A DNA stretch of 64,000 nt, taken from Chitinophaga pinensis. GTDB taxonomy: Bacteria; Bacteroidota; Bacteroidia; Chitinophagales; Chitinophagaceae. The stretch covers positions 62,001 to 126,000 of the forward strand of contig NZ_VOHS01000005.1 in the NCBI RefSeq assembly GCF_007896845.1. Direction: 5' to 3'. Shown here piece after piece: positions 28,761 to 54,017 of this stretch; within the stretch, counting starts at the first letter, position 1; every line of letters begins with the position of its first letter. A model generated the notes under the pieces. The model did no database searches, had not been told where the DNA came from, and was given only the letters and a program-made list of their open reading frames with translations. The position numbers and the translations under genes are program-made.

Positions 28761-28794
28761 AAAAAAGAGACTCCAAAGCCGGAGTCTCTTTTTT
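28761..28794 (-). terminator. Terminator of the collagen-like lipoprotein gene
   Basis: AAAAAAGAGACTCC and GGAGTCTCTTTTTT form a perfect 14-bp stem with a six-base loop. It lies downstream of the minus-strand gene ending at 28814 and is symmetrical enough to work both ways. Confidence 0.85.
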
Positions 28795-29484: not shown

Positions 29485-30522
29485 TTACCACATATTACGC
29501 GGACACAGATCCGCAAAGCGATTCCCGATCATAATACCCAGGACAATTTCATGAGAACCATGACTGGCTATGTTCAGTCCGGAAGTTGTATAGTCATAAG
29601 AATACCCGATGTTAAAAGTGGCATTCACATTAATCCCTACCATCGCAGCAATACCATCATTATAGCGGTAAGATCCTCCTACCCATATGCGATCACGGTA
29701 TTGCAGCTTCGCATTGACATCAAAGCTCACCGGCAATGCCGTTACATATTTGATCATAACTGAAGGCAGCAGACTCACCTCTTCATTCACCCACAGGCGG
29801 TATCCCGCGGTTGCAAATAAATGCGGCACCAGTTTGCCTCTATAGACACTGTCTCCTTTCACCTGACCATTATCAAAACCAATTCCTGAAGGCACAACAT
29901 TCTGGGCGGAAATACCGGCAAAGTATTGCGCGGAATAGAGATACAGCCCTGCACTCACGTCAGGTCTCCACCTCCCTAACACAGTACTGGAAGCAATCGC
30001 CGGATCTGAAGGATTCTGAAACTGTAAAGCCGTAGCATCCAGAGAAATGCATTGCGCACCCACACTGATACCGGCACTCAGACTGGTACCCGGTGCTATC
30101 CCGATATGATGTGCATAAGTACCGCTGACTGAAAAGCGGCTCAGTGGACCCGTCTTATCATTCAGGATAGTAAACCCCGCACCGGCATGTGAAGGAGGCG
30201 CTGTATAGGTTTCCCAATAGGCCTTTCCACGGGGATTAGACCCTTCCGGATTAAACCCTGTTGCAGAAGCCTGCGGATAGTCTGTTTTACGCAAAGGACC
30301 ATGTACGGTCAGGTAGGTCGTTACCGGACTTCCATTCACACCTGTCCACTGATGACGGTGACTCGCCTTTACATCCCAATAGTTCTCTATCCCCGCTACA
30401 GCAGGATTAATGATAAACGTGTTCAGTACATACTGTGTATAGTGTGGTTGCTGTTGCGCCAATACCTGTACCGGCCATGCCAGTACAAGTATTATCGCTG
30501 TTATCATGCCCTTCAGCTGCAT
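29485..30522 (-). CDS. PorP/SprF-family T9SS outer-membrane protein (second copy)
   Basis: This 345-residue protein has a signal peptide ('LVLAWPVQVLAQQ') and the PorP/SprF opening 'QQPHYTQYVLNTFIINPAVAG'. Repeated amphipathic strands fit an outer-membrane beta-barrel. Family members are needed for secretion or surface attachment of proteins carrying type B T9SS C-terminal domains; in Flavobacterium johnsoniae, SprF serves the adhesin SprB. It starts 3 bp after the OmpA/PD40 gene, so the two are translationally coupled. It probably serves one of the two cargo proteins encoded upstream. Confidence 0.85.
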   Translation of the reverse strand: MQLKGMITAIILVLAWPVQVLAQQQPHYTQYVLNTFIINPAVAGIENYWDVKASHRHQWTGVNGSPVTTYLTVHGPLRKTDYPQASATGFNPEGSNPRGKAYWETYTAPPSHAGAGFTILNDKTGPLSRFSVSGTYAHHIGIAPGTSLSAGISVGAQCISLDATALQFQNPSDPAIASSTVLGRWRPDVSAGLYLYSAQYFAGISAQNVVPSGIGFDNGQVKGDSVYRGKLVPHLFATAGYRLWVNEEVSLLPSVMIKYVTALPVSFDVNAKLQYRDRIWVGGSYRYNDGIAAMVGINVNATFNIGYSYDYTTSGLNIASHGSHEIVLGIMIGNRFADLCPRNMW

Positions 30523-30525
30523 ACG

Positions 30526-32286
30526 CTACTGTTTTAAGATCCTCAGTTCGATACGTCTGTTCAGTCTTCTGCCTTCCGGATTATCTGTTCCGTCAGGGTT
30601 CGTATTAGGTGCTACCGGTTTAGTGGCACCGTATCCTTTGTATTGTAAACGTTGCTTGTCGATACCTTTTTCCACCAGATAAGCCACACAGTTCAGTGCG
30701 CGTTTTTCTGACAGTTGCTGGTTGTATGCAGCAGAACCGGTATTATCCGTATGTGCACTGATCTCTATTTCCATCTGCGGATGATCTTTCAGTAAAGCCA
30801 CCAATTTATCCAATGCCGGATGAGAGGCAGGTGTCAGGATAAACTCGTTCAGTTCGTAGTAGATCTCCTGCATGGTAATGGCTGTATTCGCCGGCGCATT
30901 CAGAATCGTATCTGCAAGCGTTGGCGGAGGGGTAACCGCTACTACCGGCTCTTCTTTCACAGGCGGTGGCGGTGGTGCCAGATGCAGACTGAATAATTCC
31001 AGACAACATTCGGCGGAACGGTCCGAAGAAAACCATGCATCTTCCAAAATGTATTCAGACTTACTGCGGCTGAAGAAATACATATCATCTTTTACATCAT
31101 TCACCGGATAACCGAAGTTGACAGGTGTGTCCCATTTAGTCAGGTTGCCTTTTGCATAGTAAAGGTCAAAACCTCCCATGCCTGTCCGGCCATTGCTGGC
31201 AAACACCAACGTGCCGGAAGCAGGATGGAAGAAGGGAGCCTCTTCATCTGAAGAAGTATTAATGGCTGGTCCAAGATTTTGAACAGACAATGGTTTACCC
31301 GAAGCATCCAGTTCAGCGCTCCACAGATCATATCCTCCAAGTCCTCCTGCCCTGTCACTCGCAAACAACAAATGACGACCATCCGGCATGATAAAAGGTT
31401 GTTGTGCATTGGCGCCTGCCACGTTGATCATCGCATCCAGTTTCACTGGTTCACTCCACTTATCCCCTTCTTTACGACTGGTATAGATGGCGGCTGACTT
31501 CTTCGCATCTGCTGTTGTCCATTGTGTGAGGTACATAACATTACCATCTGCAGAGATACTGATCGCACCCTGATGCGTCTTTGTTGTCTGCGGAACACCA
31601 GCGCGGGCGGTAACAGCAACAGTATCTTTTGCCAGATAGATGCGGTTCGTGTAATTGGATTCTTTGGTAGATGTATATAATAACTGATCACCTGCCCATA
31701 CAGGCGCATAAGAAGCGCCGCCGGCATTCAGCGCGGCGGACGCTTTTCTTATATGGTAATCGGACTGCTCTTTTTTCTGTAGCTGCTCGCGGATAAAAGG
31801 CAGGTTACGCAGTTCCTGCGCGGCAGCAGTACTGTAAGTATCCTGTTTATCATAGCGGGACAGGAAATCTTTGAATGCAGCTTCAGCGGCATCATATCTT
31901 GCCAGTGAACGCAAACTTTCTCCGTAATAATAAGCTGCCAGTGGAAAACGGCTGCTATCAGCGGCTACTACTTTTGCAAACAGGGGCGCTGCCTTTTCAT
32001 AATCATGTAAGTGACGATAACTGTCTCCCAGCTGGTAGGCTGCCAGTACTTCATCTGCAGAAGGTGCAGGCTTTGTTGTTCCACCGGGTGCTGTATAAGG
32101 ACTATATCCATCTTTAGCAGGAGACTTAGTATTCACCGCCAGATACTTTTCATAGTACATGGAAGCTGAATAATAATCTGCCTGTTTGTAATAGCTGTCC
32201 GCAGCTCTTAAATAACTTACTTTATGTTGTGCCCATGCCAGCTGCATAGCGGCCAGACCTATGACTGTCAGAAATACTTTCTTCAT
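30526..32286 (-). CDS. OmpA-family protein with TPR and PD40 repeats (PorE-like architecture)
   Basis: This 586-residue protein has a signal peptide ('VIGLAAMQLAWAQ'). TPR-like helices follow ('AADSYYKQADYYSASMYYEK', ~30-160), then WD40-like PD40 beta-propeller repeats ('FIMPDGRHLLFASDRAGGLG', 'LVFASNGRTGMGGFDLYYA', ~190-400). After a proline-rich linker (~434) comes an OmpA peptidoglycan-binding domain (~475-586) with 'ISAHTDNTGSAAYNQQLSEK' and 'NRRIELRI'. This order resembles PorE of the T9SS, which links the secretion ring to peptidoglycan. It is flanked by two PorP/SprF genes (18 bp and 3 bp gaps), so it probably anchors this surface complex to the cell wall. Confidence 0.85.
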   Translation of the reverse strand: MKKVFLTVIGLAAMQLAWAQHKVSYLRAADSYYKQADYYSASMYYEKYLAVNTKSPAKDGYSPYTAPGGTTKPAPSADEVLAAYQLGDSYRHLHDYEKAAPLFAKVVAADSSRFPLAAYYYGESLRSLARYDAAEAAFKDFLSRYDKQDTYSTAAAQELRNLPFIREQLQKKEQSDYHIRKASAALNAGGASYAPVWAGDQLLYTSTKESNYTNRIYLAKDTVAVTARAGVPQTTKTHQGAISISADGNVMYLTQWTTADAKKSAAIYTSRKEGDKWSEPVKLDAMINVAGANAQQPFIMPDGRHLLFASDRAGGLGGYDLWSAELDASGKPLSVQNLGPAINTSSDEEAPFFHPASGTLVFASNGRTGMGGFDLYYAKGNLTKWDTPVNFGYPVNDVKDDMYFFSRSKSEYILEDAWFSSDRSAECCLELFSLHLAPPPPPVKEEPVVAVTPPPTLADTILNAPANTAITMQEIYYELNEFILTPASHPALDKLVALLKDHPQMEIEISAHTDNTGSAAYNQQLSEKRALNCVAYLVEKGIDKQRLQYKGYGATKPVAPNTNPDGTDNPEGRRLNRRIELRILKQ

Positions 32287-32304
32287 GTTGTAATCATTTT
32301 TTCT

Positions 32305-33312
32305 TTATAACCTTGGACAAACGAAATCACCCGCTGGTGTTTTCACTGATTTCCGGCCAATGAATGATAAAGAGAGTTCGAAGCTGTTATTACCTCTCGT
32401 AATCTTACCGAGATCAGAAGAGTTGACATCGTAGCTCAATCCGAGCATAAAGCTTTTGTAGCTTACACCGGTATATACAGAGAAGGCGTCTTTTAAACGA
32501 TAGTTCGCACCCAGCATCACATCTGTTTCAGCAGCAACTGTGTATTGTCCATAAGCACCCAACATCTTCTCAGAAGCAGCACCTTGTTTCATATACAATA
32601 CGTTTGGTGTGAGACTGAACAGTTCAGAGATCATCACTCTTACACCGGCATGTGCAGTGGTACGCATAGGTATGCGGGCATCACCGGTAGTACTGAACTG
32701 ATCACTGGGTTTATTCAGGTGCATGACAGAGAATCCACCATAGAGGTTATATTTCTTACCCGGCAGTGCATCGTAATACAACACACCTGCGCCGGCATCA
32801 AAAGCTGCAGCAGTTGTTTTATTGAACATATCATTGGTGGCCTGTCCGGGGTTGTAACCGGTGATAGGATTCCATTGATCACCAAAGTGCAATTTAGCCG
32901 GATCAAATCTGCGCTGAATAAGCCCCATCTGAATACCGAAGACCACCCTATGTTGTTCAAATGCACCAAAGCGGACACCCGTATAAGAAGCGCTACCATA
33001 AGCAGTTGTATAGTTATAGCCACCGTCACCCGCCTTCTGGTTTAACACACTGGCGCCGAAGTTGATATTATTATTCGTCTTCACTTCTCCTGCAATACCA
33101 TAGGTTTTGAAAGGACTGCTCACGCTTCCCCACTGAGAACGATAGATGGCAGATACGCGATAATCCCCATCAAACACACCTGTCAGGGCAGGGTTCAACC
33201 ATGCCGGATACACATAGTAACCGGAGAAGTGCGGGTCGGATTGCGCCTGCAGCTTTTTACCGGTCAGGCCCACTAAGCACAGCATCAACAATGCTTTGGT
33301 AAAAGTTCTCAT
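32305..33312 (-). CDS. PorP/SprF-family T9SS outer-membrane protein (first copy)
   Basis: This 335-residue outer-membrane barrel has a signal peptide ('LLMLCLVGLTGKKLQAQ'), then 'DPHFSGYYVYPAWLNPALTG', the classic PorP/SprF N-terminal motif. 'GIQMGLIQRRFDPAKLHFGD' and the closing 'YDVNSSDLGK...FELSLSF' also match the family. It is 48 bp downstream of the 1371-residue cargo gene and 18 bp upstream of the OmpA/PD40 gene. By analogy with SprB/SprF it is the likely dedicated partner of the adjacent type B cargo. Confidence 0.88.
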   Translation of the reverse strand: MRTFTKALLMLCLVGLTGKKLQAQSDPHFSGYYVYPAWLNPALTGVFDGDYRVSAIYRSQWGSVSSPFKTYGIAGEVKTNNNINFGASVLNQKAGDGGYNYTTAYGSASYTGVRFGAFEQHRVVFGIQMGLIQRRFDPAKLHFGDQWNPITGYNPGQATNDMFNKTTAAAFDAGAGVLYYDALPGKKYNLYGGFSVMHLNKPSDQFSTTGDARIPMRTTAHAGVRVMISELFSLTPNVLYMKQGAASEKMLGAYGQYTVAAETDVMLGANYRLKDAFSVYTGVSYKSFMLGLSYDVNSSDLGKITRGNNSFELSLSFIGRKSVKTPAGDFVCPRL

Positions 33313-33360
33313 GATGTCAGCTTTTTTTATTGATCAATGTTTTTTAATAGTTGTTTATAC

Positions 33361-36300
33361 TTATCTCACCAACACTACATAACCAGTCAGCGGCGCAGAT
33401 CCATTCTTTATTTTTATAACATAATAGTAAGTTGCCAGTGGCAGAGGATGTCCATTCATCATACCATCCCAGGGTGTGTTGTAACCGGTGGACTGAAATA
33501 CTTTCTGTCCGTAGCGGTTATAGATTTCAACAACACATTCCGGATAATCAGCCAGATTAGTTATTACCCAGGTGTCATTGATACCATCTCCATTCGGAGA
33601 AAAGGCATTAGGCACTTTTACCTCCTTGAACACCTTTACGGTCAGCTCATCACTGGCGGTACAACCTCCCAGACCTGTAGCTGTAAGGGTATAGGTAGCA
33701 TCTGCTTTTACCGTCAGCATAGGTTGCAGTATGTCCGGATCAGACAGGTCAGTAGCAGGCGTCCATCTGAAAGTGAGTTCGTTTTCATTATTCACGACAG
33801 GTGCAAACCGGATCACCGTTCCTTCTGCCACTACGAATGAAGGGCCGGCGTCTACTACAGGTTGCAGGTATACTGTTACCGGTGCGGTGAAAGGTTCGGA
33901 AATACAACCGGCATTACTTGTCACGGTCAGCCGCACGGTATAGTCTCCCGGTTCCTGATATCTCTTCACAGGGTCTGCAATATTGTCGGAACTACCATCT
34001 CCAAAATCCCATGTCCATGCACTGATGACCCCATTATCAACAGTGCTGTTGTCAGCAAAGAAATTGTCTGTACCCTGACACAGTGTATCAGGAGAAGCTG
34101 TGAAAGCTGCTGTAGGTTTATTGAAAAATGCGCTGAGTATTTTTGCGGTATCGTGTGTACAGCCATAGGCAGATACTACTGATAAGGTCACATTATAAGT
34201 ACCTGCTGTTGCGTACACATGTGAAGGGTTTCTGTCAGTCGCGGTTGCACTGCCATCACCAAAACTCCATTGATATGTGTTTGCGGCTGTGGATAAGTTG
34301 GTAAATATTGCATTTCCTTCAGGCATACAGATCGCTGCCGGCGGATTGAAATCAGCCACTGGTAATGCATGTACAACAGCATTCTTTGCAGTCGTATCAC
34401 TTACACAACCGTTATCGCTTACAACCGACAGTTTTACTGCATAAGTACCTGTTGTTTTATACAGTTGATCGAAAGGACTGTCATTACTTTGTACAGCTGT
34501 AGTACCATCTCCGAACTGCCAGTTCCACGTAGTGATGCTGCCGCTGCCTGCGGTAGATTGATCAGTAATACGTACAACAGCTCCCAGACATACATCAGTT
34601 GTAAGAGAGAAATCAGCAACGGGTGCAGGCAGTACATTTACATTAGCGGTGATGGAGTCTTTACATCCGCTATCCGCAGTGAACACATACGCTACTGTAT
34701 GTGTTCCGGCACCTGCTGCCGAAGGATTAAAATTGCCGGCGGCATCAATATACGGGCCCCGGTAGATACCGGCCCCGGTCACGCCATTCGTAACCCCGGC
34801 AAGCGCAATGGACACGGTGCCCTTTACGCCTTCGCAAACAGCTGGGATACTCGCATACGTTAATACAGGCTTTACATTGAAAGTGGCTGTTACCAACGTG
34901 TCTTTCACACAACCGTTTACGGTCGTCACACTGTGCCGGATTTTATAGGAACCATAGTAGGTATAGGAATGTAAAGGATTGTTTAAAGTGGAGGTATTTG
35001 GATTTCCGGTTGTTGCATTGGGGTCTCCAAAATCCCATGCATAACTTGCGATTGCCTGTCCGTCAGGAGCGGTCGCCGTACTTGTAAACTGTACCGGTGC
35101 ACCTTGTGCGATACAATCATCCGGGTATGTAAATGAAGCTACTGGTGCTGCGTATACTGTCACTGTTTTCCTGACGGTATCACTCACACACAGATCACTT
35201 ACTTTCACTACCTGACTGACAGTATAAGTTTTATAATCGGCATAGGTGGCTGTTGTTGCCGAATTGGTAGTATTTGTTTTACTGGTACCGTTGCCAAAAT
35301 CCCAGTTCCATTCTTTTATTGGCGCCGGACCAGCATACGCCGCATTGTCATTAAAAGTAACGGTACTACCAGCGCAGATTGCCGCAGTTGTAACGGCAAA
35401 ATCTGCTACCGGTTTGTTATAGACTGTCAGGTTAAAGCTTGTATCTGCCACACAACCATCTTCTGTAACTACCGCATATGTGATGGCTTGTGTACCGGCG
35501 CTCAGGCGCTGGCCTGTCTGTTGTAATGCAGATGTTACACCACCCGGGAAACCCCATTTCCATTGCGTCAGTTTATACCCGTTACTGCTGTCTTTACCGG
35601 CGAAATAAGCCGTATCCAGTTCACAGGCAGTAGCGAATGTATAAGCAGCAAGCGCATCCGGTTTACCCTTTACGGCCACTGTAAAGTTGACTTCTTCTGT
35701 GTTATTACAGTTATCGATATGTGGTGCTGTGGATAATACGGTGATATCATAATAACCGGCGTTCGGAAATGTATAAGGCTGTGGTAAAGTATACTGATAG
35801 TACTGTACGCCCTCAATCAGCAGCTGTTTTGCAGGAGCCGGCGAATTCTGTACAACATCTGCGGCAGGACTGATATCAGCGCCCAGCTTACTCAGTTGCC
35901 ATTCCAATTTTGTAGGTTGATAGGTCAGCAACACAGATAGATCCAGCGGCGTATTCACACAGGTGAATGGGTGCATTGGTCTGGAGGTATCTGCCTGATT
36001 GTGGATCTGTCCGATCGCGTTCAGATTATTGATGAAGGTACCGGCGTTATATCCGTAACTTTCAAAGTCACCAAGGCCATAGGTAGTGGCATTAAAGGCA
36101 GAATCACTCTGTACGGTACATTGTGCAGCAGCAGCTGTCCAGCGTTTAACAACTACGGTATAACCCGGCAGGTTCGGATGTGGATAACTCAGATCAAATG
36201 TATTCTGACCATCTATTTTCAGGGAAGGAATACCATTATCAGGGATAACAAGTAAGAGCCCATTCACTTCAATCTTTTCCACATTATTTCTGTAGAAGGC

Positions 36301-37476
36301 TACTTTCTTCGTGGCTTGTTCAACCGGACTGAGATAGATCATTTCAGGGTCTCCGATACCGGTTGTATTCGGACAACCACCCTGAGAGGCCATAAACTGC
36401 GCCAGTAAAACCGGCTTATCAGCTTCAATATAATCAGCAGTGTTGCTGACAAATTCATAACAGGAATGAGACAAGCCTGTCAATACAACACCGTTACGTT
36501 TTACGATAGTGGAAGGATCTTTAACGACTACTTTATAAGGATTCGTCTGGAAACTGGTGGCTACTCTGCCTGAGATAGGTGCTGTCAGGTAACGTTTTCC
36601 CCATGCCTGATAAGGAAATACCTGTTGCATATTATTATCTCCGCTGGTGCCTGCGGTACTACCAGGGCAATTAATGCTCGTACGGCTACTACCGGAAAAT
36701 ACGGATATGGGGAAACATTTGCCGGATGCATTGGCGATGGATCGAACAGTAGTACCTGTCAGCTCTTTTCCTTTACCACCACCGAGTGGCGCACCTACCA
36801 ACTGGTAGATATCACCTTTGTTGAGCGTCACCGTAAACGGTACGTTAGCTGGACGTCCGTTACGGCTCGACTCAGAGGGGTTAATCTCAACCATCGTATT
36901 GTCTTCCTTCGCGATGACATACATCCAGGAAAAACAGTCATTTGCAAAGCTCTGCTGGCTATTTAATGAGATATAAGAGTATCCCCAGGTAGAAACCGGC
37001 ATCAGCATAGTAGCACCTGATGATACGCTTCCGTAAATGTGTGCATAAGCTACGATCGGCACGTCACTTACGATATGAATACCTTTATTACTAAAGACCC
37101 CTTCCCCACCGGTACCACCATAAGAAGGCGGTACAGAATACAGTCTGGCATCTACGGAACCGGCTTTAGGAATAAGATCGCTTACGATCACTGTATTTGC
37201 GGGAATAGTATATGTTCTTGACCATGCAGTTCCATCGATACTTATCGTAACAGTCGCAGCATCTTCTGCACTCAGGTATACGACCATGTTCTGGCTATTG
37301 GTAAAGCCGGGTTCCATAAACTGATGGTGTCCATAACCAACCCAGAATTCTTTACCTCTATTGGACAGTCCCTGAGCCATTGTGCTAATGCCGCACAGTG
37401 TGAGTAAGCAGGCAGCAGCGCCTGTACGGACTGCTGCCTGCATTTTTTTGAAAATGTTGGTTACGAATGTCGTCAT
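33361..37476 (-). CDS. Secreted 1371-residue PKD-repeat protein with IgGFc-binding-like domain and T9SS type B C-terminus
   Basis: After a signal peptide ('AAACLLTLCGISTMAQ') residues ~40-500 form an IgGFc-binding-protein-like domain ('GKEFWVGYGHHQFM', 'VPIVAYAHIYGSVSSGATML', 'NVPFTVTLNKGDIYQL'). From ~600 there are about six PKD-type domains with the 'WxFGDG' core (e.g. 'WNWQFGDG', 'YQWSFGDG', 'WTWDFGDG') and further Ig-like units. The C-terminus ('VPNAFSPNGDGINDTW', 'IYNRYGQKVFQS', 'GHPLPLATYYYVI') is the gliding-motility-associated type B T9SS sorting domain, so the protein should be exported to the cell surface. Its gene starts 2 bp after the stop of the 2972-residue cargo gene. A role as a surface adhesin or binding protein is likely. 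Confidence 0.88.
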   Translation of the reverse strand: MTTFVTNIFKKMQAAVRTGAAACLLTLCGISTMAQGLSNRGKEFWVGYGHHQFMEPGFTNSQNMVVYLSAEDAATVTISIDGTAWSRTYTIPANTVIVSDLIPKAGSVDARLYSVPPSYGGTGGEGVFSNKGIHIVSDVPIVAYAHIYGSVSSGATMLMPVSTWGYSYISLNSQQSFANDCFSWMYVIAKEDNTMVEINPSESSRNGRPANVPFTVTLNKGDIYQLVGAPLGGGKGKELTGTTVRSIANASGKCFPISVFSGSSRTSINCPGSTAGTSGDNNMQQVFPYQAWGKRYLTAPISGRVATSFQTNPYKVVVKDPSTIVKRNGVVLTGLSHSCYEFVSNTADYIEADKPVLLAQFMASQGGCPNTTGIGDPEMIYLSPVEQATKKVAFYRNNVEKIEVNGLLLVIPDNGIPSLKIDGQNTFDLSYPHPNLPGYTVVVKRWTAAAAQCTVQSDSAFNATTYGLGDFESYGYNAGTFINNLNAIGQIHNQADTSRPMHPFTCVNTPLDLSVLLTYQPTKLEWQLSKLGADISPAADVVQNSPAPAKQLLIEGVQYYQYTLPQPYTFPNAGYYDITVLSTAPHIDNCNNTEEVNFTVAVKGKPDALAAYTFATACELDTAYFAGKDSSNGYKLTQWKWGFPGGVTSALQQTGQRLSAGTQAITYAVVTEDGCVADTSFNLTVYNKPVADFAVTTAAICAGSTVTFNDNAAYAGPAPIKEWNWDFGNGTSKTNTTNSATTATYADYKTYTVSQVVKVSDLCVSDTVRKTVTVYAAPVASFTYPDDCIAQGAPVQFTSTATAPDGQAIASYAWDFGDPNATTGNPNTSTLNNPLHSYTYYGSYKIRHSVTTVNGCVKDTLVTATFNVKPVLTYASIPAVCEGVKGTVSIALAGVTNGVTGAGIYRGPYIDAAGNFNPSAAGAGTHTVAYVFTADSGCKDSITANVNVLPAPVADFSLTTDVCLGAVVRITDQSTAGSGSITTWNWQFGDGTTAVQSNDSPFDQLYKTTGTYAVKLSVVSDNGCVSDTTAKNAVVHALPVADFNPPAAICMPEGNAIFTNLSTAANTYQWSFGDGSATATDRNPSHVYATAGTYNVTLSVVSAYGCTHDTAKILSAFFNKPTAAFTASPDTLCQGTDNFFADNSTVDNGVISAWTWDFGDGSSDNIADPVKRYQEPGDYTVRLTVTSNAGCISEPFTAPVTVYLQPVVDAGPSFVVAEGTVIRFAPVVNNENELTFRWTPATDLSDPDILQPMLTVKADATYTLTATGLGGCTASDELTVKVFKEVKVPNAFSPNGDGINDTWVITNLADYPECVVEIYNRYGQKVFQSTGYNTPWDGMMNGHPLPLATYYYVIKIKNGSAPLTGYVVLVR

Positions 37477-37478
37477 GG

Positions 37479-40400
37479 TTATCTGATCAGGTTGATAATT
37501 CCTTTCTTATCTACCGTACTGCCATCTGCCAGTTGCAGTCTGCACACATACATGTATACACCTGATGGCTGTGGTTTGCCTTTGTAAGTACCATCCCATC
37601 CACGGCTCTGGATATCAGATTCGAAGAGTTTTTCTCCCCATTGGTTGAAGATCATCAGGTGGATATCTTTAATGATGCTACCATATACTTTCAGTTCATC
37701 ATTCACCGCATCACCATTAGGCGTAAAGGCATTCGGAATGTAGATACCGTCCAGCAGTGTGGTACCACTTACCGGTCCTGTTTCTACAGGTTTACAACCC
37801 AGCGCTCTTACCCACAGTTTCACTTCCTGCATTGGCTGTAAGCCGGTAATGGTATGGAATAATCCTTTGCTACCGGAAGAAGGAACGGTCCAGTTCAGAC
37901 CATCCGTTGACACCTCATATCCTGAAGCATTCGGCACCGCATCCCAGACGAAACGCAGGGCATTTACACCTGTAGAATCGAGTGTTACGACTGGTGCTGT
38001 CAGCTGTGGTAACACGGTGAGCACCGCTGGTGTACGCACAGGAGATGCACAACCATCCTTATTTGTTTCGAGATAATATTTCACATCTGCAGTAACATTG
38101 GTGACGCTCAGTGTACTGCCATCTGCTATTTTATTACCGCCTGCTGGTGCATCATACCAGCTGTAGTCTACTCCTGTTGCAGGGCTCTGTACCTCGAAAG
38201 AAGCGTCAGTACCCATACAGATGGTCAGTGAGTCTGTAACCAGTATACCTTCTGCCGGTCCTTTTACTTCCAGCTCTTTGGTTGTATCGGCTATACATCC
38301 ATCTGCTGCCACCAGTCCAATTGTCACATCGTATGTACCACCGGAAGAGTAGAGATATACAGGAGATTGTATGCTATCTATCGCACCATTACCAAACTCC
38401 CATTTCCATTTAGTGATAGCTGCGTTATTTGTGGTTGATCCTGTTCCTTCGAAGTGTACGGAGTCGCTTACACATCCATTGAAGGTGGCGGTATAGTCCA
38501 CTTTCGGCGCAGCGATTACATTCACCGGCAGGAAGGTTTCTACTTTATTATCACAGCCTTCGAATGACGGATCCTGCATTACTACCGGCACATAATAAGT
38601 ACCTGCTTTGGAGAAGGAGTAATCTGCATCAATTGCAAAACGGTAGTATTTCTTATTGTTAGCGATGAATGAATCAACCGGTACCGGATTATTCTGTGTT
38701 ACATCAGCAGCAGGTGTGATGTTGCTTACCTTACTGATGTTCCACTGTAAAGAAGTAGGACGCTGTGTTGAGATAAAGGTGAATCTGAACGGCGTATTCT
38801 CACAGGTGTAATCATTAGCCGCACCTGTACCGTTATTCACGTTAGAGATTGAAGCACGGGTATTCAGATTTCTTACCAGAGTACCTGCGTTATAGCCGTA
38901 GCTTTCAGCATCTCCCAGACCGTATGTGATCGCGGTAAATGCGGAGTCACTGGTTACATAGCTCTGTGCTTTTGTAGCATCCCAGCGTTTCACCACTACG
39001 GTGTAACCCGGTAAAGCAGGGTGAGGATATTTAAAGTCAAACAGTGTGCTGTTATCTATTTTCAGACTGTTCACACCATTGGTAGGGATGATTAGTGTCA
39101 GATAGTTGGAGATAATTCCTTCTTCCGTGTTACGATAGAAACCAAGCTGTTTAATACCCTGTTCTATCGGACTGAGATAGATCATTTCCGGATCACCATA
39201 ACCATCGGCATTGAAACATCTGCCGGTAGACGCGATATACTGTGCTACCATGATTGGCTGATCTGCTTCGATATAGTTAGGTTCTTCACTTACATATTGA
39301 TAGAAACGTCCTTTATTGAGTCCGGTCAGTGTAACGCCATCTACTTTTACTTTTGTAGCCGGATCTTTTACCATAATCCTGTAGACGTTACCCATCAGTT
39401 TTGAAGGATCTTCATCTGTAGATGTAGGCGCTGTCAGGTAACGTTTGCCCCATGCCTGTGAAGGGAAACACTGCTGGATAAAGTTATCACCACTACCACC
39501 ACTACCTGTAGGATCACAGCTTACGCTGGTACGGCTGTTACCGGAGAATACGGCAATCGGATAACATTTACCGGCTGAGTTAGATACTGATCTGAAGATT
39601 GTACCTGTTACATCATAACCGGTGGTTTCACTTACCCTTGCACCTAATACCTGATACACATCACCTTTGTTCAGTGTTACGGTAAATGGTACGTTAGCAG
39701 GGTGACCGGTTGCTGTCGGAACAGACGGCGTAATCTCTACTACCGTATTTGGCTGATCAGCGATCACATAAGCCCATGAGTAGTCAGCGGCGCCGTATAC
39801 CTGATTGTAACCCAGTGCATAGTATTCATATCCATAGGTACCTACCGGCAGGAGCATGGTAGCACCTGAGGACTGATTACCATAAATATGTGCGTATGCT
39901 ACAATCGGCTTATCACTTTCTATGCTGATACCTCTGTCAAAGAGACCTTCTGATACCAGACGGGCATCTTCCAGTCCATTTTTCGGTATCATGTCTGTTG
40001 CCAATGTTGAATTAGCATCCAGATGGTAATGTTTAATCCAGCTGGTACCATTCACTTTTACGGTAACGTCAGCAGCTTCCTGTGCACTCAGGTAAAGCAC
40101 CATATCCTGATCATTACTACTGAAGAAGAAGTCATGATGACCGTATGCCACCCAGAAACGGGTACCTCTGTTCGAGCTGTCGGCCGGTGGAATCACAACA
40201 GGAACTACCGCTCTTGCGCTATCAACCAGACCCGTGAATTTATCAAGGAAGCTCAATTTAGATTCCGTGATATAGTTATTGTATTCATCTACTTTGCTAC
40301 TGTCTGTCACCAGCCACTTATCATCCGCATCTGTTCTGCCTAATCCCAGCTGTGATTGCTGTCTTACAAAACCCTGCCATGGATCCATATAGAAGGTCTT

Positions 40401-46397: not shown

Positions 46398-46421
46398 GTG
46401 AATAACTTTCTTTTTGGATTG

Positions 46422-47723
46422 TTAAAACCAGGATATCCAGGATTTTCCGTCTTTAGCGCTTACCATATCGTAACCGCTATTCGTTTTTACCAGATAGAAT
46501 CCGTTGGAGTCTGTGATCTTCGTAATGGTGTTGGAGACAGCAGTTTCTCCTTCCGGCAATTCTCCGAGTATGCCCAGATATGGGAATATGATGCGGCCGT
46601 CTGTTTTGAAAGTCGGAGCGCTGAATGCAGGTCCGTATTCGATGTATTGTCCGGCGTCAGTGCGGGTTACAAAACCTAAGAGGTCATACACTGTATTGTC
46701 GCTGGTACCGAATTTTGGATAGAATACAACAAAGGAATAGTCAGGCAATTGCTGAATGCCGTAGGCATCGTCAATACCGTCTACATGGAATCCATCTACT
46801 GTTACCCAGTAACTACCTGCATCTACCTGCTGTTGCCACCAGGTTTTCGCAGCGTCTTTATCAATTACCAATGGTTTCGCTGTTTCTTTGATGGTACCGG
46901 TATTTCCGTTGGCCGTAAAGCCCAGTGTCGTTGTGGAGGCGTTCCAGGTAACATTATCGAAGCCGGTCAGCGTCTCATTGCCGGTATTAATGGCAGGTGA
47001 GAATGCTACACCGGTTGGCGTATAATAAAAGCCGGTGCTTTCTGTATGATTATTGCCACCTTCATCTACCCAGCTGATGGTAATGGTTCTGCTGGCAACA
47101 TCAAAAGCCACATCATAACCTTTACTGTTAACAGTCAGGCGTTTGAAGTAAGTGAGGTAGCTACCTATTTTATCTATCAGGCGATTGCTCTTCTGTGCAG
47201 CATAAGCATTCTTTTCTGCCTCTGTTGCTTTTACAAGTACAGCTCTGCTGCCATGATATCTTCCTTTGAGTACGATCGAGTCACCACTCATGCCTTCGAT
47301 GGAAAATTCGAAGTCAGAGTATAATCCTTCGCCATATACACCGCCATTCACGGAACCATCCGGATCGCTCAGCAGGTGTATGTAGGAATAAGTATCAAAC
47401 AGGAGACATGGCTGTTGCAATGCTTTCAGACGATAGCTGCTTTCTGCCATGGTCACGGAAGATGCAGAGTCGAAATCAGCATACATCTTTACCCTGTTGG
47501 AATCATTGAACTGAAAGTAAAAAGAGAATATACCATGCTCCAGACCAGAAGGATATACCAGCCCTTTCCAGCCGTATGGCGCAGCCACAAGCATATCATT
47601 ATACTTTTTCAGGGTATCGTTCAGGCGGGTATCAGGAGGAGCACTGAATACGTCTTCATCCGATTTCTGGCAGGCTGCCAGTACGGAAAAGGTAAAACAT
47701 ATCAGGAGTAAGCGTTTATACAT
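46422..47723 (-). CDS. DUF4302 lipoprotein
   Basis: This 433-residue lipoprotein has lipobox 'VLAAC' (Cys18). 'LNDTLKKYNDMLVAAPYGWKG', 'FSFYFQFNDSNRVKMYADFD' and 'LKGRYHGSRAVLVKAT' are characteristic of DUF4302, a Bacteroidota family repeatedly encoded beside SusC/SusD and zinc metallohydrolase lipoproteins. It is probably an outer-membrane surface lipoprotein that binds substrate for the transporter, but its biochemical role is unknown. It lies 51 bp after the metallohydrolase gene and 24 bp before the giant cargo gene, inside the operon. Confidence 0.85.
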   Translation of the reverse strand: MYKRLLLICFTFSVLAACQKSDEDVFSAPPDTRLNDTLKKYNDMLVAAPYGWKGLVYPSGLEHGIFSFYFQFNDSNRVKMYADFDSASSVTMAESSYRLKALQQPCLLFDTYSYIHLLSDPDGSVNGGVYGEGLYSDFEFSIEGMSGDSIVLKGRYHGSRAVLVKATEAEKNAYAAQKSNRLIDKIGSYLTYFKRLTVNSKGYDVAFDVASRTITISWVDEGGNNHTESTGFYYTPTGVAFSPAINTGNETLTGFDNVTWNASTTTLGFTANGNTGTIKETAKPLVIDKDAAKTWWQQQVDAGSYWVTVDGFHVDGIDDAYGIQQLPDYSFVVFYPKFGTSDNTVYDLLGFVTRTDAGQYIEYGPAFSAPTFKTDGRIIFPYLGILGELPEGETAVSNTITKITDSNGFYLVKTNSGYDMVSAKDGKSWISWF

Positions 47724-47774
47724 AATATCTTGCGTCTTTTCTTAGTGTTTTGAAATGATTGTCAGCCGCTGTTT

Positions 47775-48686
47775 TTAGTAGATCAGTGCTTCAACTGCTT
47801 TCCGCTTCTTTGTCTGCAGACTGTAGAAATCTATTTTCCACGCTGTTTTAAAGTAGGCCACAACCATGGCTTCTTTCTGACGCAGGGCAGAGATGGCCTG
47901 TGCCTGTGTCACACCACTGGCTGCGGTTCCTTCCGGTATACTGGCGATCAGTCTTTCAAAACCTGCACGGCCGTCTGTCAGCATCAGGGAGATCATTTCC
48001 ACAAAGTCATCGTCAAAGCCAGACATCGCATATGGGGTAATAAAACCATTGGCGTGTGCCTCGTCATCGCTGATATTGGTCCAGTTGGCAGAATAACGCC
48101 CTGCGGAGATATTTTTAAAGGCTGGTGGGTAAAGTATCGTCTGATGAAGAATATGCCCAAATTCGTGCTCTATTACATGAAAGATCTGCTTCAGGGTTGC
48201 TGAGTCAGAAGGCTTATAATTGGGCATGCCTTTGATACGGAAAGAATTGATGGAATAGAGGACCACTTTACGGCCACCTTCAGCGGTACCTAAAGTGATA
48301 GTGCCGTTATCCACATTCCAGCTGGCGCTGCCACAAAGGATCAGGAATTTCGGACTGTTCTTACGGAAGAATTCAATACCCGCTTCCTGTACATAGGTGT
48401 CTATCCATACTTTTTTAATGGATTGCAGGGCTGGTTTTACCATTGCTTCCTGTGGCGGTACCAGTGTTTTGTTCAGATCAAACTCAAACTGGTCCCATTT
48501 GTATTTTGCTTCAATGTTATACGGTACTACCAGAGTATCATACAACCATTTGTCGAGTGCTGTTTTTTGCCAGCTATCTCCACCCAATCCAGGAATATCT
48601 TCCAGATTACTCAGATCGTCATCTTTTGCACATGCGGCAAACAAGGCCACCGTCAGGAGAAGTAATAATGTCTTTATATTTTTCAT
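47775..48686 (-). CDS. Substrate import-associated zinc metallohydrolase lipoprotein (Peptidase_Mx1-like)
   Basis: This 303-residue lipoprotein has lipobox 'LFAAC' (Cys19). 'VIEHEFGHILHQ' (~172) is an HExxH zinc site with an extended HExxHxxxH-like layout, and the downstream 'DEAHANGF' and 'DDFVEMISLMLTDG' supply further conserved acidic residues. It matches the TonB-associated HExxH lipoprotein family (TIGR04549). Members sit on the outer membrane and probably cleave peptides or other polymers for import by the neighbouring SusC/SusD pair. It is 30 bp downstream of susD-like and upstream of DUF4302. Confidence 0.88.
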   Translation of the reverse strand: MKNIKTLLLLLTVALFAACAKDDDLSNLEDIPGLGGDSWQKTALDKWLYDTLVVPYNIEAKYKWDQFEFDLNKTLVPPQEAMVKPALQSIKKVWIDTYVQEAGIEFFRKNSPKFLILCGSASWNVDNGTITLGTAEGGRKVVLYSINSFRIKGMPNYKPSDSATLKQIFHVIEHEFGHILHQTILYPPAFKNISAGRYSANWTNISDDEAHANGFITPYAMSGFDDDFVEMISLMLTDGRAGFERLIASIPEGTAASGVTQAQAISALRQKEAMVVAYFKTAWKIDFYSLQTKKRKAVEALIY

Positions 48687-48716
48687 GCTGTTTGCGGGAT
48701 AAATCCTGAGAAATGT

Positions 48717-50165
48717 TTAGCGGGGATTTAATGGAAGTCCGGATGTCTTGGCCGATACAGGTATCTGAATAACCCTGCGCGGATCATCTGCGCCGAGTAT
48801 GATAGTCTGTCCCTGACTGGTTACATGGGTAACAGGCACTTTGTAGCGCATCAGATCAAACCAGCGTGTACCTTCCTGCACGAATTCTGCTCTTTTGAAA
48901 TCCAGCACAGTGTTCAGCAAAGCGTCTTTGTTATCAGAAAGTCCATAGTAACTTTTGCATTTGGCCAGTGTTACCGCATCAGCAGATGCATCATAGTTGG
49001 TGATACGCGTACTGGCATAAGTATTCAGGTCAGCAAGAACAGCGGAGGTGTTACCCAGTTGTGCGTTTGCTTCGGCTCTGTTGAACAGTACTTCTTCGGC
49101 TGTGAATAAAGGCAGCATAGTATAGATGTAACCAATGGTTGCATTCACCGATTCCTTTACAAAATATTCACTCAGCTTAGGAATGAAGTAATCAGCAGTT
49201 CCATATGTATATGCAGGGAAGCACCAGTCACCACCTGTTACATTACTACCCATGATAGCTCTGTACATCGGGAAGTTCATACCAAACCGGTACTGTGCCA
49301 GATTACGACCGTAGCTGGAATTAGTTTCCACCAGCAGGAAGTTGGCATTCTCGCTGGAGTTGGAATAGATGTTAAATAATTCCAGTGGAGAAAGGAACAC
49401 ATAGGAGCTGTTCCACGGACGCAGATAGGTTACTGCCTGACTTGTCGGGAAAGCCATATCTGCGTAGGTGATCACTTGTTTATAGTCACGTTTGTACAGG
49501 TAGAACCTTGCCGCAAAAGCATAAGCTGCTTTCTGGTTAAAGTGGTACTTAGGTACTTTGTATTTGTCATCACGGATCAATGGTAAACCTGCCAGCAGGT
49601 CTTTTTCGATCTGATCGTATACATAGGCTACTGTCTTCCTGTCATATTGTTTGAAGACTACTTCTTCCGGTTCGGTAACATACGGAATACCCATATCTGT
49701 ATTAGCCGTTGCTGCATCGTAGCTTTTAGAGAAGATATTTACCAGCATAAAATGTGCATATGCACGTGCTACCAGTGCTTCTCCTTTCTGCCGGCTGTAA
49801 GCAGCGGTGTCTTTTGCATTTTCACAGGCGATTAAGGCGTTGTTAGCCGCAGCGATGGCGGTATAGGCCGCGGCCCAATAATATTCAGGAGAATCCTGAT
49901 TGATGTTTTGTACATCATTGAAATAGAAAGGATCTCTGTTGGTACGTACGTCGATACCGGTACCTTTATCGGCCACGTTGTCGGACATCGCTTCGCAGAA
50001 GGTCATATAGTTAGCCTGTGGATAAGCAGTACCCAGCAGCTGGCTTACCTTTTCAGGTGTGTCCAGTTGTGTCCAGGTACTATCCGGCTGTTGATCCAGA
50101 TATTTTTTACATCCTGTTACGGACGGGAGAATAGCTAAAAGTATATATAGCGCTTTTCTTTGCAT
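48717..50165 (-). CDS. SusD/RagB-family nutrient-binding outer-membrane lipoprotein
   Basis: This 482-residue protein has a lipoprotein signal ('LLAILPSVTGC', Cys19), then the SusD N-terminal motif 'KKYLDQQPDSTWTQLDTPEK'. TPR-like helices follow ('EYYWAAAYTAIAAANNAL', 'GEALVARAYAHFMLVNIF'), and the C-terminal 'LDFKRAEFVQEGTRWFDLMR' is the most conserved SusD motif. It forms the lid of the SusC transporter and captures substrate at the surface. The gene starts 11 bp after susC-like. With a protease next door rather than glycosidases, the cargo may be peptide rather than glycan (inference). Confidence 0.93.
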   Translation of the reverse strand: MQRKALYILLAILPSVTGCKKYLDQQPDSTWTQLDTPEKVSQLLGTAYPQANYMTFCEAMSDNVADKGTGIDVRTNRDPFYFNDVQNINQDSPEYYWAAAYTAIAAANNALIACENAKDTAAYSRQKGEALVARAYAHFMLVNIFSKSYDAATANTDMGIPYVTEPEEVVFKQYDRKTVAYVYDQIEKDLLAGLPLIRDDKYKVPKYHFNQKAAYAFAARFYLYKRDYKQVITYADMAFPTSQAVTYLRPWNSSYVFLSPLELFNIYSNSSENANFLLVETNSSYGRNLAQYRFGMNFPMYRAIMGSNVTGGDWCFPAYTYGTADYFIPKLSEYFVKESVNATIGYIYTMLPLFTAEEVLFNRAEANAQLGNTSAVLADLNTYASTRITNYDASADAVTLAKCKSYYGLSDNKDALLNTVLDFKRAEFVQEGTRWFDLMRYKVPVTHVTSQGQTIILGADDPRRVIQIPVSAKTSGLPLNPR

Positions 50166-50176
50166 ACTGTCTGTTT

Positions 50177-53100
50177 TTAAATGCCCACTTTAAGAGATAA
50201 TGTAAACTGCTTCTGTATTGGCTGTGCCACACCTCCGGCGTTGAAGAACTCAGGATCCTGTCCTTTCAGTTTTTTGTCTGAATAGATCAGCCACATGTTA
50301 TTCGCAGCAGCTGTTACCAACAGACTGCTAAAACCTGTTCTCTTTAAGAAGCTGGCTGGCAGCAGGTATGTCAGGGATACCGTTTTCAGACGCACAAAAT
50401 CTCCTTTTGCTACGCGCGCTGTAGAATAGTTGTAGTTGTTATAAGGATATGCGCCACCGAGCAGTGTCTGCTCATATGCATCGAGTATGGATGGTACATT
50501 TGTCTGGGTTTCATCTTTCGGCATTATCCAACGGTCATAGAACTCATTGGGCATTGCATCGAGGTCAGAGTAAGCCGTTTTGAAAGCCGGGTACAGACGG
50601 ATCTTGTTACCCCACTGATAAGTCATGAATACGTTCAGTGATAATGCTTTGTAGCGGAAGGTATTATTCAGACCACCTGTTACCGGAGGATCTACGGGTC
50701 CCTGATAAACCAGTGTACCAGTTGCATCATCCTGCAGATCAACGTTTGAGCTGGTCTTACCATCACCTGTAACGAAGGTCGGTACACCAGTATGCGGGTC
50801 CAGTCCTTTATAGTCAAGGGAGAAGAGACTGCGTACCGGATAGCCTTCTTTATTACCACCTTCGGCAGCAACGAGGTCAAAGATCAACGGAGCGTTTTTC
50901 GCATTGGTGATCTTATTGGTGTTATAACCGAAGGTCAGGTTAGTTCTCCATCCCCAATGTTTTTTACGGATCACTTCACCACCTACCATGACTTCAATAC
51001 CTTTGGAAGTCATATCCGCATAGTTGGCTGCTTTGTACAGTTCACCGCCGATGCCGGAGGTTTTAATAAGACTGATCAGGTCAAAACTTTTACGGCTGTA
51101 AAGGTCGAGCGTCATGTTCAGGCGTCTGTCTAAGAAGCCTGCTTCTACACCGAGGTTAGTCGTATATAATTTTTCCCATGTGAGTTCGGTATTCTTCAGG
51201 TGTGCCAGCTGGATGACAGATTCCACTTCATTCAGGTGTGCACGACGGCTGTTTACAGTCTGATAAACGATATTAGAGTTGGTAGCAGGTCCCATGCTGG
51301 CGGTCAGACCATAGCTGGCGCGTAAGGAGAGATAATCTACATTACGGAGTTCACGCATGAAGTCTTCTCTATCCAGATTCCAGCGACCAGCGAAGCTCCA
51401 TGTAGGGAGCCATCTCGCACCGGAAGAAGCACCCAGACGGTTAGAACCATCATAACGGGCATTAGCGCTGATACTGTATTTATCCCCATAAGAGTAATCA
51501 GCTGTACCATAGAAGGCGGCAAATCTGTCATAGTCGCGTGCCATACCATAGTAAGGGAAGTTGCTTTCAATAGTCTGTTTCAATACACGATAGTCGATAT
51601 AAGGAACACCACCGTTATTGTATTGGTAACCATAACCTGTATTGGAAGCATTTTGTCTGTCAGCATATTTCACCTGCTGACCTGCCAGTATATTCAGATT
51701 ATGATTACTGCCAAATGTAGTTCTGTAGCTGAGTGTGTTACGGAAATCGTAGTTGACCAGCTGGTCTTCCGTTCTGTTATAGAAACCACCTTCCGGTAAT
51801 ACAATCACCGGCGGTGCATCCGGGTTCTCCGGATCGCGGTACAGGAATTTATTATTTTGTGCGATGGTCGCATTGTCTGCTGCCCGGTAAGCATTCGCCA
51901 TGTTGGCGTCTTCAGTGATCTGGTGTTCACGGGAAGATTTCACATAACGCAGTGCGCCTACAAATTCCCATTTCAGTTTATCGGTGATTTTCCAGCCCAG
52001 ATCACCTTGCAGACGAAGGTCCATCACATTTAGTGAGAGATAGTTATTACGCAGTTCATTGATGATATTAAAATCCGCGAAGTTGCGTCTGAAATATTCC
52101 AGATCGCCTTTATCATCATATGCTCTCAGTGTACGGCTGGTATTCAGTGCGTAGCTGAAAGGGTTGATATCGAAATCGCGGTCATACTGTCCTTCTACCG
52201 GATTACTGTTACGCGTCAATGTACCCGGCGCCCTTTGCTGACGTACGGAGCCGAGTGTAGAGAAACCAGCTGTGAATCTGTCGGAGAATTTATAGTTATT
52301 ACGATAGTTCAGGGTATAGCGATGTACTTTATCTGCTATTGTCCAGCCGTTATCTCCATAATAGCTGGTAGAGAAATAGGATTGGGAGCGATCTGTACCG
52401 GAGGATACGCTGATGGAATGTTCCTGTACGAAGTTGTTGCGGAACAGGATATCGAACCAGTCGGTATTAGCTCTGCCATATTGTAATAGGAAAGCTTTAC
52501 GCGCTTCAGGTGTATTCTCCAGTTCGAAGTGACCATTCACGTCTGTCTGCAGCATATCATACATTTTTCCGTACACACCGACGTCGCCACGGGAAAGGAT
52601 ATCGGATGTCAGAATACCTTTACGCTCAAGCTCTGCCAGTACAGACATCTGTCTGGCAGAGTTCATGATATTAAAGTTTCCATAGGTAGGTTTCAATTGT
52701 GTACTGAAATTGCCGCTATAGGCAATGGTGGGTTTACCTGCACGTCCTTTTTTGGTCGTGATCACCACTACACCATTCATGGCGCGGGCACCATAGAGTG
52801 CCGTTGCTGCAGCATCTTTCAGGATATCGAAACTTTCAATGTCGTTAGAGTTCAAACCTGCAACAGCAGAACCCAGTAAAGTGGTAGGGTCACCACTGGA
52901 AAGCTGGTCATTAGAGATATTGGCCACATCTTCCAATACTACTCCGTCTACTACCCATAATGGTTTGTTATCACCGTTAATGGAGGTAGCACCGCGGATA
53001 CGGATCTTGGGAGCGGTACCAAATGTACCTGATACGTTCTGTACAGATACACCCGCCACACGGCCTTCCAGCATGCGGCTAACATCTGCCACACCATTTA

Positions 53101-53587
53101 TTTTTACGTCTTCTGCCTTGATAGATACGGCAGAACCCGCGAATTTCTTTTTGTCAATATTCTGGAAACCTGTCACCACCACTTCTGACAGGGAGCCTTC
53201 TGTACCACTCAACAGGACATTCACCAAAGTCTGACCGGTAAACAGGACGACCTGTGCTTTTTTACCAATAAATGAAAAGCGTAAGCTGTCTCCGGAACGG
53301 GCGCTTAATGTAAAATCACCATCAACAGTTGTCACTGTTCCTTTTTTCGTAGACAGGTTGACTACTGATACATTGGGCAGCGCGACTTTCTCTTCAGCAC
53401 CAGTCACCCTTCCTTTCGCCAGACCCATAGGGATAGAATCTCTTACTATACGGCTGTCAGCCGCGTGGTTGGTTCCGGCTGCATGCGCAGCACCGGATAG
53501 TAATAGCAGTATTGTAACCGTAATAATTCCCCTCCGGCGCTTTTTTAAGGACGCCGGCAATTGATTACCATGCATAGGTAATGTCAT
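50177..53587 (-). CDS. SusC/RagA-family TonB-linked outer-membrane transporter
   Basis: This 1136-residue protein is a typical SusC. After a signal peptide ('IITVTILLLLSGAAHAAG') comes a carboxypeptidase-regulatory-like domain (~58-130, 'ALPNVSVVNLSTKKGTVTTV'). The 'SEVVVTGFQ' TonB box region and plug ('MLEGRVAGVSVQNVSGTFG', 'DILKDAAATALYGARAMNGV') follow, then a 22-strand barrel. It imports oligomers across the outer membrane using TonB energy. It is the first gene of the ~24-kb operon, and the divergent sensor kinase lies across a 430-bp region. The start could be Met5 ('MHGNQLP') instead of Met1. Confidence 0.93.
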   Translation of the reverse strand: MTLPMHGNQLPASLKKRRRGIITVTILLLLSGAAHAAGTNHAADSRIVRDSIPMGLAKGRVTGAEEKVALPNVSVVNLSTKKGTVTTVDGDFTLSARSGDSLRFSFIGKKAQVVLFTGQTLVNVLLSGTEGSLSEVVVTGFQNIDKKKFAGSAVSIKAEDVKINGVADVSRMLEGRVAGVSVQNVSGTFGTAPKIRIRGATSINGDNKPLWVVDGVVLEDVANISNDQLSSGDPTTLLGSAVAGLNSNDIESFDILKDAAATALYGARAMNGVVVITTKKGRAGKPTIAYSGNFSTQLKPTYGNFNIMNSARQMSVLAELERKGILTSDILSRGDVGVYGKMYDMLQTDVNGHFELENTPEARKAFLLQYGRANTDWFDILFRNNFVQEHSISVSSGTDRSQSYFSTSYYGDNGWTIADKVHRYTLNYRNNYKFSDRFTAGFSTLGSVRQQRAPGTLTRNSNPVEGQYDRDFDINPFSYALNTSRTLRAYDDKGDLEYFRRNFADFNIINELRNNYLSLNVMDLRLQGDLGWKITDKLKWEFVGALRYVKSSREHQITEDANMANAYRAADNATIAQNNKFLYRDPENPDAPPVIVLPEGGFYNRTEDQLVNYDFRNTLSYRTTFGSNHNLNILAGQQVKYADRQNASNTGYGYQYNNGGVPYIDYRVLKQTIESNFPYYGMARDYDRFAAFYGTADYSYGDKYSISANARYDGSNRLGASSGARWLPTWSFAGRWNLDREDFMRELRNVDYLSLRASYGLTASMGPATNSNIVYQTVNSRRAHLNEVESVIQLAHLKNTELTWEKLYTTNLGVEAGFLDRRLNMTLDLYSRKSFDLISLIKTSGIGGELYKAANYADMTSKGIEVMVGGEVIRKKHWGWRTNLTFGYNTNKITNAKNAPLIFDLVAAEGGNKEGYPVRSLFSLDYKGLDPHTGVPTFVTGDGKTSSNVDLQDDATGTLVYQGPVDPPVTGGLNNTFRYKALSLNVFMTYQWGNKIRLYPAFKTAYSDLDAMPNEFYDRWIMPKDETQTNVPSILDAYEQTLLGGAYPYNNYNYSTARVAKGDFVRLKTVSLTYLLPASFLKRTGFSSLLVTAAANNMWLIYSDKKLKGQDPEFFNAGGVAQPIQKQFTLSLKVGI

Positions 53588-54017
53588 ATGTATAGCTGAT
53601 TTACTGAAATGATCCTGGTTGTAAAAAATATCTTCTTCTGGTTGCTCCTGACCTGATAGTGTGACGTATTACCCGGCTTTTACTGTTCCACGCGTTAGAT
53701 TTAGCTGTAACGAATTAACATTCAACTGTCAATACCCCTTAAGAATGTTGCGAGCCAGGCTCCTTTTTTCAAAAGCTAAAATTATTCAGTTGGGAAGGTT
53801 GTTGCATCCGGGTAAACCGCCTTTATAGAAATTAGCGGTAAACCACTATTTAATTCTTATCTTACTCCCCGGAATCAACCAAACTTTATATTCGTAACGA
53901 CACTATTTTATAGGAAATCCTTTGTTGCAACCAGAATCTATTTCGTATCCTGTAATAACTGTCAATTTTACAGGAAAAATTTGCCATGATGCCACAAGGA
54001 GAATGAAATGACTTCTA
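53588..54017. other. Divergent control region between the SusC operon and the two-component system
   Basis: 430 bp without a gene. It should hold the promoters of the SusC operon (minus) and the kinase gene (plus). Seen: a near-consensus -7 (TAGCTTTTG on the minus strand, ~53772-53780), TATATTCG at ~53890 (one mismatch to TAnnTTTG), and an inverted repeat at 53948-53975. No small gene or RNA was recognised. Confidence 0.45.
53948..53975. promoter_or_regulatory. Inverted repeat TCCTGTAA-N12-TTACAGGA
   Basis: Two perfect eight-base arms (53948-53955 and 53968-53975) lie 43 bp upstream of the kinase ATG. The spacing suits a dimeric regulator such as the NarL-type response regulator encoded nearby; that link is inference. 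Confidence 0.4.

Follow-up and report, generated by a model that had tools for sequence, protein, structure and literature searches.

The window analysed here is a 64,000-nucleotide stretch of the Chitinophaga pinensis genome (GCF_007896845.1, contig NZ_VOHS01000005.1, positions 62,001-126,000 of the forward strand). Its minus strand carries ten genes in which a SusC/SusD importer, with a zinc metallohydrolase (Mx1) and a DUF4302 lipoprotein, is followed by two giant proteins bearing sorting domains of the type IX secretion system (T9SS) and by their PorP- and PorE-like neighbors. The ten genes are a conserved, co-inherited operon that unites two known kinds of module. No account of a joined importer and giant-adhesin operon was found among the matches listed from open-licence papers. 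The genes and signals are listed below, with lengths in amino acids (aa) and base pairs (bp).

50177-53587, minus strand: SusC/RagA-type TonB-dependent outer-membrane transporter, 1136 aa, short form (TIGR04056, 630 bits)
48717-50165, minus strand: SusD-like lipoprotein, 482 aa (PF14322, PF07980)
47775-48686, minus strand: Mx1 zinc metallohydrolase lipoprotein, 303 aa, HEFGH motif (Peptidase_Mx1 PF15890, TIGR04549)
46422-47723, minus strand: DUF4302 lipoprotein, 433 aa, predicted lipocalin-like N-domain (PF14135)
37479-46397, minus strand: GIANT1, 2972 aa, type B T9SS sorting domain (Beta_helix, IgGFc_binding, PKD_4, Ig_7, CHU_C/TIGR04131)
33361-37476, minus strand: GIANT2, 1371 aa, type B T9SS sorting domain (IgGFc_binding, five PKD_4 stretches, CHU_C/TIGR04131)
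32305-33312, minus strand: PorPa, PorP/SprF family, likely partner of GIANT1 (TIGR03519, 190 bits)
30526-32286, minus strand: PorE-like TPR/PD40/OmpA protein, 586 aa (NF052230, 257 bits; OmpA 77, PD40 56 bits)
29485-30522, minus strand: PorPb, PorP/SprF family, likely partner of GIANT2 (TIGR03519, 272 bits)
28814-29392, minus strand: COL, the tenth gene, collagen-like lipoprotein, 192 aa (same position in 32 of 32 mapped loci)
28761-28794, minus strand: intrinsic terminator, 15-pair stem, probable operon end (hairpin scan)
53811-53844, minus strand: operator-like tandem GGTTTACC-N18-GGTTTACC, in the region that separates SusC from the divergent kinase, 224 bp upstream of SusC
54018-56084, plus strand: divergent sensor histidine kinase, probable regulator (HisKA_3, HATPase_c)
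56059-56694, plus strand: LuxR-type response regulator, probable regulator (Response_reg, GerE)

A sequence-only reading of this stretch had described nine minus-strand genes. All nine open reading frames (ORFs) are present at the coordinates it gave, recomputation returned the same gaps of 11, 30, 51, 24, 2, 48, 18 and 3 bp, and Pfam and NCBIfam profile matches bear out its family labels. The operon does not stop at nine genes, since COL follows PorPb after 92 bp; directly behind COL lies the terminator (28794-28761) at which the operon probably ends. When equal 290-bp windows behind each gene were compared across 32 mapped loci, a terminator-like hairpin was found after gene 10 in 12 loci and after each of the nine other genes in none; none appeared in 960 random in-operon windows or 320 shuffles. 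Terminators that would split the two modules were thus looked for and not seen in any of the 32 loci, although the scan is not sensitive, because it detected no hairpin behind gene 10 in the other 20 either. The consensus promoter scan did not discriminate (41 found against 40.2 expected). The earlier proposal of one transcript therefore gains from the lack of terminator-like hairpins inside the operon and nothing from the promoter scans; co-transcription of the ten genes is inferred.

The joined arrangement is not private to this genome, a point on which the sequence-only reading depended. We surveyed 148 genomes of relatives (genomes, contigs and loci carry our G, C and L numbers) and called genes linked when IgGFc genes lay on the same strand as Mx1 and within 25 kb; linkage was read from 150 listed rows per table, so that the counts are lower bounds. 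IgGFc domains occurred in 72 relatives and Mx1 in 83. At least 62 Mx1 genes in at least 47 genomes, all of the window's genus, were linked to IgGFc genes. An IgGFc row was listed for 52 genus genomes, of which 47 were linked, the rest being G008, G053, G061, G062 and G070. Thirty-two of the 62 linked loci were mapped (30 picked for spread and the two of this genome), and the neighborhood comparison that the earlier reading had called for returned the order SusC, SusD, Mx1, DUF4302, GIANT1, GIANT2, PorPa, PorE-like, PorPb, COL in every one. The gap between DUF4302 and GIANT1 has a median of 31 bp and does not exceed 56 bp except in G047 (818 bp), the C20 copy being set aside. An extra 246-aa ORF between the two genes in G047 (L070, G047:C255) is the sole case among the mapped loci.

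The second copy of the operon in C. pinensis lies on contig C20 (L009/L010, G000:C20:78000-106000), and there GIANT1 runs over two frames in the assembly, either a real break or a sequencing error. A third Mx1 locus of this genome, on C9, has the importer and no giants. Of 395 genomes sampled from the phylum, 25 have Mx1 and 87 have IgGFc. The eight non-genus genomes compared (G395, G168, G212, G224, G316, G344, G348 and G453) have the two families on separate contigs or at least about 99 kb apart; G344 has hits of both families at the ends of contigs and may be linked after all. Mx1 and IgGFc were unlinked in G081 and G086 among the matches listed. Outside the genus, no link was found either among the matches listed or in the eight genomes compared from the 395-genome sample, a weak Mx1 hit in G098 not being placed.

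Both giants end in a type B sorting domain (TIGR04131/CHU_C), PorP/SprF genes adjoin them, and the T9SS translocon SprA is encoded in the genome (2890 bits). Internal repeat analysis found three related beta-helix units in GIANT1. The IgGFc part of GIANT2 was predicted with a mean local distance difference score (pLDDT) of 86.4. The PorE-like protein scores 257 bits where the NF052230 cut-off is 600, and is thus not PorE itself. PorPa, the PorE-like protein and PorPb are all present in 36 of 37 loci with both giants; the exception, G050:C1, has both giants and no PorP match nearby. Because the GIANT2-only loci carry only PorPb (in 7 of 7, PorPa not being seen within the stretch read), the likely pairs are GIANT2 with PorPb and GIANT1 with PorPa and the PorE-like protein. 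This pairing fits published excerpts that describe PorP-PorE-PG1035 and SprF-SprB pairings (PMC9143113) and cognate PorP/SprF shuttles (PMC12618676). This G050 locus (L105/L106, G050:C1:403268-440267) holds a second GIANT1-GIANT2 pair, which has diverged in sequence and is transcribed away from a kinase/response-regulator pair akin to that of the window, with no SusCD and no PorP match in its neighborhood.

In the import half, Mx1 scores 307 bits against a TIGR04549 cut-off of 75 and has the solved relatives 4l7a and 9urd. The closest solved relative of SusC by sequence is 8ypu_C (E 6e-108), and SusD has a solved relative in 8ypt_A (E 3e-20). The window's SusC lacks the extra N-terminal part seen in the C20 copy. 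Lipobox-like N-termini, by a loose pattern, were found for Mx1 and DUF4302 in 32 of 32 loci and for SusD and gene 10 in 31. No glycoside hydrolase or lyase Pfam match was found among the ten genes, which by that criterion do not form a polysaccharide utilisation locus.

The two halves have been inherited together. Over the 32 loci, the ten proteins have correlated distances, and the correlation between SusC and GIANT1 (r 0.905, 31 loci) was equalled in 0 of 999 permutations. The tree of SusC, SusD, Mx1 and DUF4302 and that of GIANT2, PorPa, the PorE-like protein and PorPb have 27 of 29 splits in common; well-supported splits recurred in the other tree in 24 of 24 cases for the cassette and 24 of 25 for the import genes. 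In a tree made by a quick method from six free-standing import operons and 21 of the 32 linked loci, the linked import operons form one clade (Shimodaira-Hasegawa-like approximate likelihood ratio test, SH-aLRT, 99) beside the free-standing operons of G033 and G086; long branches leave the order of the free-standing operons themselves unsure. COL lies 34 bp after DUF4302 in G033, and in G086 two COL-like genes start from about 1 kb after it. Cassettes free of an importer occur in three other genera (G081, G086, which has a second GIANT2, and G259), and GIANT2 with PorPb alone in seven loci. On the simplest reading, the cassette looks to have been inserted once, between DUF4302 and COL, because there is one linked clade, its two nearest free-standing importers have COL downstream and importer-free cassettes exist elsewhere. 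In G081 the free-standing cassette (L112:4737-15140) has an unrelated SusCD/alginate-lyase locus 488 bp upstream of it.

One genome departs from this pattern. G008 has an open 423-aa fusion (L103:8019-9290) in which the first ~230 residues of SusC run in frame into the C-terminal half of Mx1 and the HExxH motif is missing; the rest of SusC, SusD and DUF4302 were not found at the locus, while both giants, PorPa, the PorE-like gene, PorPb and COL remain open. Its GIANT2 falls among the linked ones (22-row fork, SH-aLRT 95), at a place that is not exactly sure. Most simply, G008 represents a loss of the importer.

Gene content, order, conservation, the single clade, co-inheritance and the position of the terminator were obtained by computation. 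To explain them, we propose, and give an even chance, that a five-gene T9SS adhesin cassette was inserted into an import operon, is inherited with it as a unit and works as a bind-cut-import system. It is plausible that binding falls to the giants, cutting to the protease and import to SusCD. Both giants would leave the cell via the T9SS and be retained on its surface, GIANT1 through PorPa and the PorE-like protein and GIANT2 through PorPb, and would keep a protein-rich target near the cell. Mx1 would cleave the held target, DUF4302 and SusD would receive the released ligand, and SusC would take it in with TonB. This ligand might be a peptide or, by analogy with the related iron-capture loci, iron or haem. 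A closer form of this proposal, in which the giant T9SS tethers physically hand a captured protein or cell to the protease and importer so that adhesion and uptake are one complex, is offered tentatively.

Several points weigh against a bind-cut-import system. Structure searches with the IgGFc region returned no function. Either half is also found without the other and can therefore work alone, and the giants can outlive the importer, since G008 keeps the cassette after importer loss. COL was not seen in four of the six free-standing import operons (G001, G030, G081 and G000:C9) and need not belong to the import half. Between GIANT1 and GIANT2, 8 of the 32 loci have 319-400 bp, room for further promoters, as does the ORF-holding gap before GIANT1 in G047. 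Finally, the shared order is partly a matter of descent, and co-inheritance alone is no proof of joint function. The single surface machine of the sequence-only reading gains from linkage, order and co-inheritance, but G008, which lost the importer and kept the giants, speaks against an obligatory coupling of the parts.

Iron or haem capture is the bind-cut-import proposal with its cargo named: the giants would hold an iron- or haem-binding protein, the protease would strip it of its ligand, and SusC would import that ligand and not a peptide. The import half matches the Capnocytophaga-type iron-capture gene set, and iron or haem accordingly rivals peptide as the putative cargo. In the portion of PMC5429918 available, icsC-icsH of the Capnocytophaga canimorsus iron capture system (ICS) are equated with Riemerella B739_0103 to B739_0098, of which 0103 is SusC, 0102 RagB and 0101 a 'substrate import-associated zinc metallohydrolase'; the six Riemerella genes were up under iron limitation, with listed changes of 3.1 to 3.8 in a column whose unit was not read. 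The window has the gene order of ICS-type import operons, SusC, SusD, TIGR04549 and a lipoprotein gene next. A Capnocytophaga-type query found 18 named loci, all 18 with the same SusC-SusD-Mx1-DUF4302 core, eight of them in Capnocytophaga and the others in Sinomicrobium, Cellulophaga, Joostella, Polaribacter and Myroides. Structure comparison of the DUF4302 model (pLDDT 90.7) suggests a lipocalin-like N-domain, a weak hint at a small ligand. A general iron role is countered by Bacteroides thetaiotaomicron, in which a SusCD pair and a DUF4302 gene have negative values in the iron table of PMC10434189, as excerpted. Named in this way, the cargo is somewhat unlikely to be right. Several Capnocytophaga loci (L200, L201, L203 and L205) carry more DUF4302-like genes behind the core.

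Feeding on peptides or glycopeptides has a similarly limited chance. The giants would hold on to a glycoprotein, a fungal wall or prey cells, Mx1 would cut, SusCD would import the peptides in the manner of RagAB, and a mannosidase of glycoside hydrolase family 92 (GH92) may trim glycans. The HExxH motif of Mx1 is intact in 32 of 32 mapped loci, and SusC resembles RagA (E 5e-46), though 8ypu and two further SusC entries are nearer. A GH92 gene runs in the same direction beyond gene 10 in 4 of the 7 loci with a two-component regulator (described below), but it lies behind the terminator, and in the other three loci it is reversed, in two ORFs or not seen.

It is unlikely that the cassette only hitch-hikes, that is, that it was inserted behind an active promoter and is kept for adhesion or gliding alone, with co-expression but no shared task. 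The importer-free cassettes, G008 and the long gaps (319-400 bp between the giants in 8 loci, 818 bp in G047) agree with such a history. However, a single insertion has persisted, with congruent trees, through a duplication and through deep divergence (the ten proteins having mean distances of 0.24-0.53), and the 33 clade loci include one loss, which gives no rate because 32 were picked as linked and G008 as unlinked. Prey capture resembling the grappling hook of Aureispira is very improbable. In its favor, GIANT2 matches GhpA (9flp in PDB, E 3e-37, ten stretches), but the best stretch (598-1146) is in the PKD-repeat part, and PKD repeats are common.

The operon is accompanied by two types of regulator. 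Seven of the 32 loci, the window included, have a divergent LuxR-type two-component pair and a SusC of 1126-1136 aa; the other 25 have a sigma factor like those of extracytoplasmic function (ECF) and a FecR-like protein before a SusC of 1210-1246 aa. ECF, FecR and STN (the last naming the additional N-terminal stretch in the longer SusC) are labels that we presume from reading the C20 proteins and not from a domain search. The tandem GGTTTACC-N18-GGTTTACC is present in 7 of 7 two-component-type loci; a scan of 1.57 Mb of loci showed it at no other place. A looser pattern (spacer 16-20) gave 22 matches in 21 of 79 genus genomes. Twelve of these share the spacer type, and all 12 lie 5-6 kb upstream of the Mx1 of a linked locus; the remaining ten are about as many as in the reversed control (9). 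This genome has one match, and the tandem at 53811-53844 is its single candidate operator of the two-component system.

Among the flanking genes, the GH92 mannosidase gene of the window (26464-28776) lies behind the terminator, with same-direction counterparts in G007A, G048A and G010A; of the remaining two-component loci, one has the gene reversed, one has it in two ORFs and one does not show it in the stretch read. Next to the response regulator, all 7 two-component loci encode a 311-aa protein without a Pfam match and with a signal-like N-terminus (56732-57667 in the window). Genes for an alpha-L-rhamnosidase and a GH127 beta-L-arabinofuranosidase adjoin at 58485-62868.

If adhesion and uptake do form one complex, the operon would represent adhesin-coupled importers as a class, with a single origin in this genus as far as the sampling goes. 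The operon gives the type B giants of a single lineage a concrete candidate task, since descent ties their genes to one protease and one importer. The natural variants, with the halves fused, either half alone or the importer lost, make this task testable by gene removal, and one operon carries two regulator types, one of them a two-component system.

Among known systems, GhpA of Aureispira is likewise a long repeat surface protein, which GIANT2 matches in its PKD part; it differs in that no match was displayed outside the repeats (only the best stretch being displayed) and no common operon was shown. RagAB-type SusCD pairs are oligopeptide importers. The window has the same SusC/SusD architecture and differs from RagAB in its dedicated Mx1 protease and DUF4302 lipoprotein and in a SusC nearer to 8ypu than to RagA. 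The ICS of C. canimorsus and its Riemerella homologue share SusC, SusD and the TIGR04549-type metallohydrolase in order (PMC5429918, in part), and in Capnocytophaga-type loci DUF4302 comes next after the metallohydrolase, as in the window. However, the 18 named loci had no giant, PorP or PorE-like match within flanks of about 10 kb, and several Capnocytophaga loci have extra DUF4302 copies and other genes, with no COL match, whereas the window operon comprises ten genes. SprB-SprF and PG1035-PorP-PorE resemble the other half in their type B sorting domains, adjacent PorP-like barrels and PorE-like TPR/PD40/OmpA protein; unlike them, the window joins two IgGFc giants and two PorPs to a SusCD-protease importer within a single operon.
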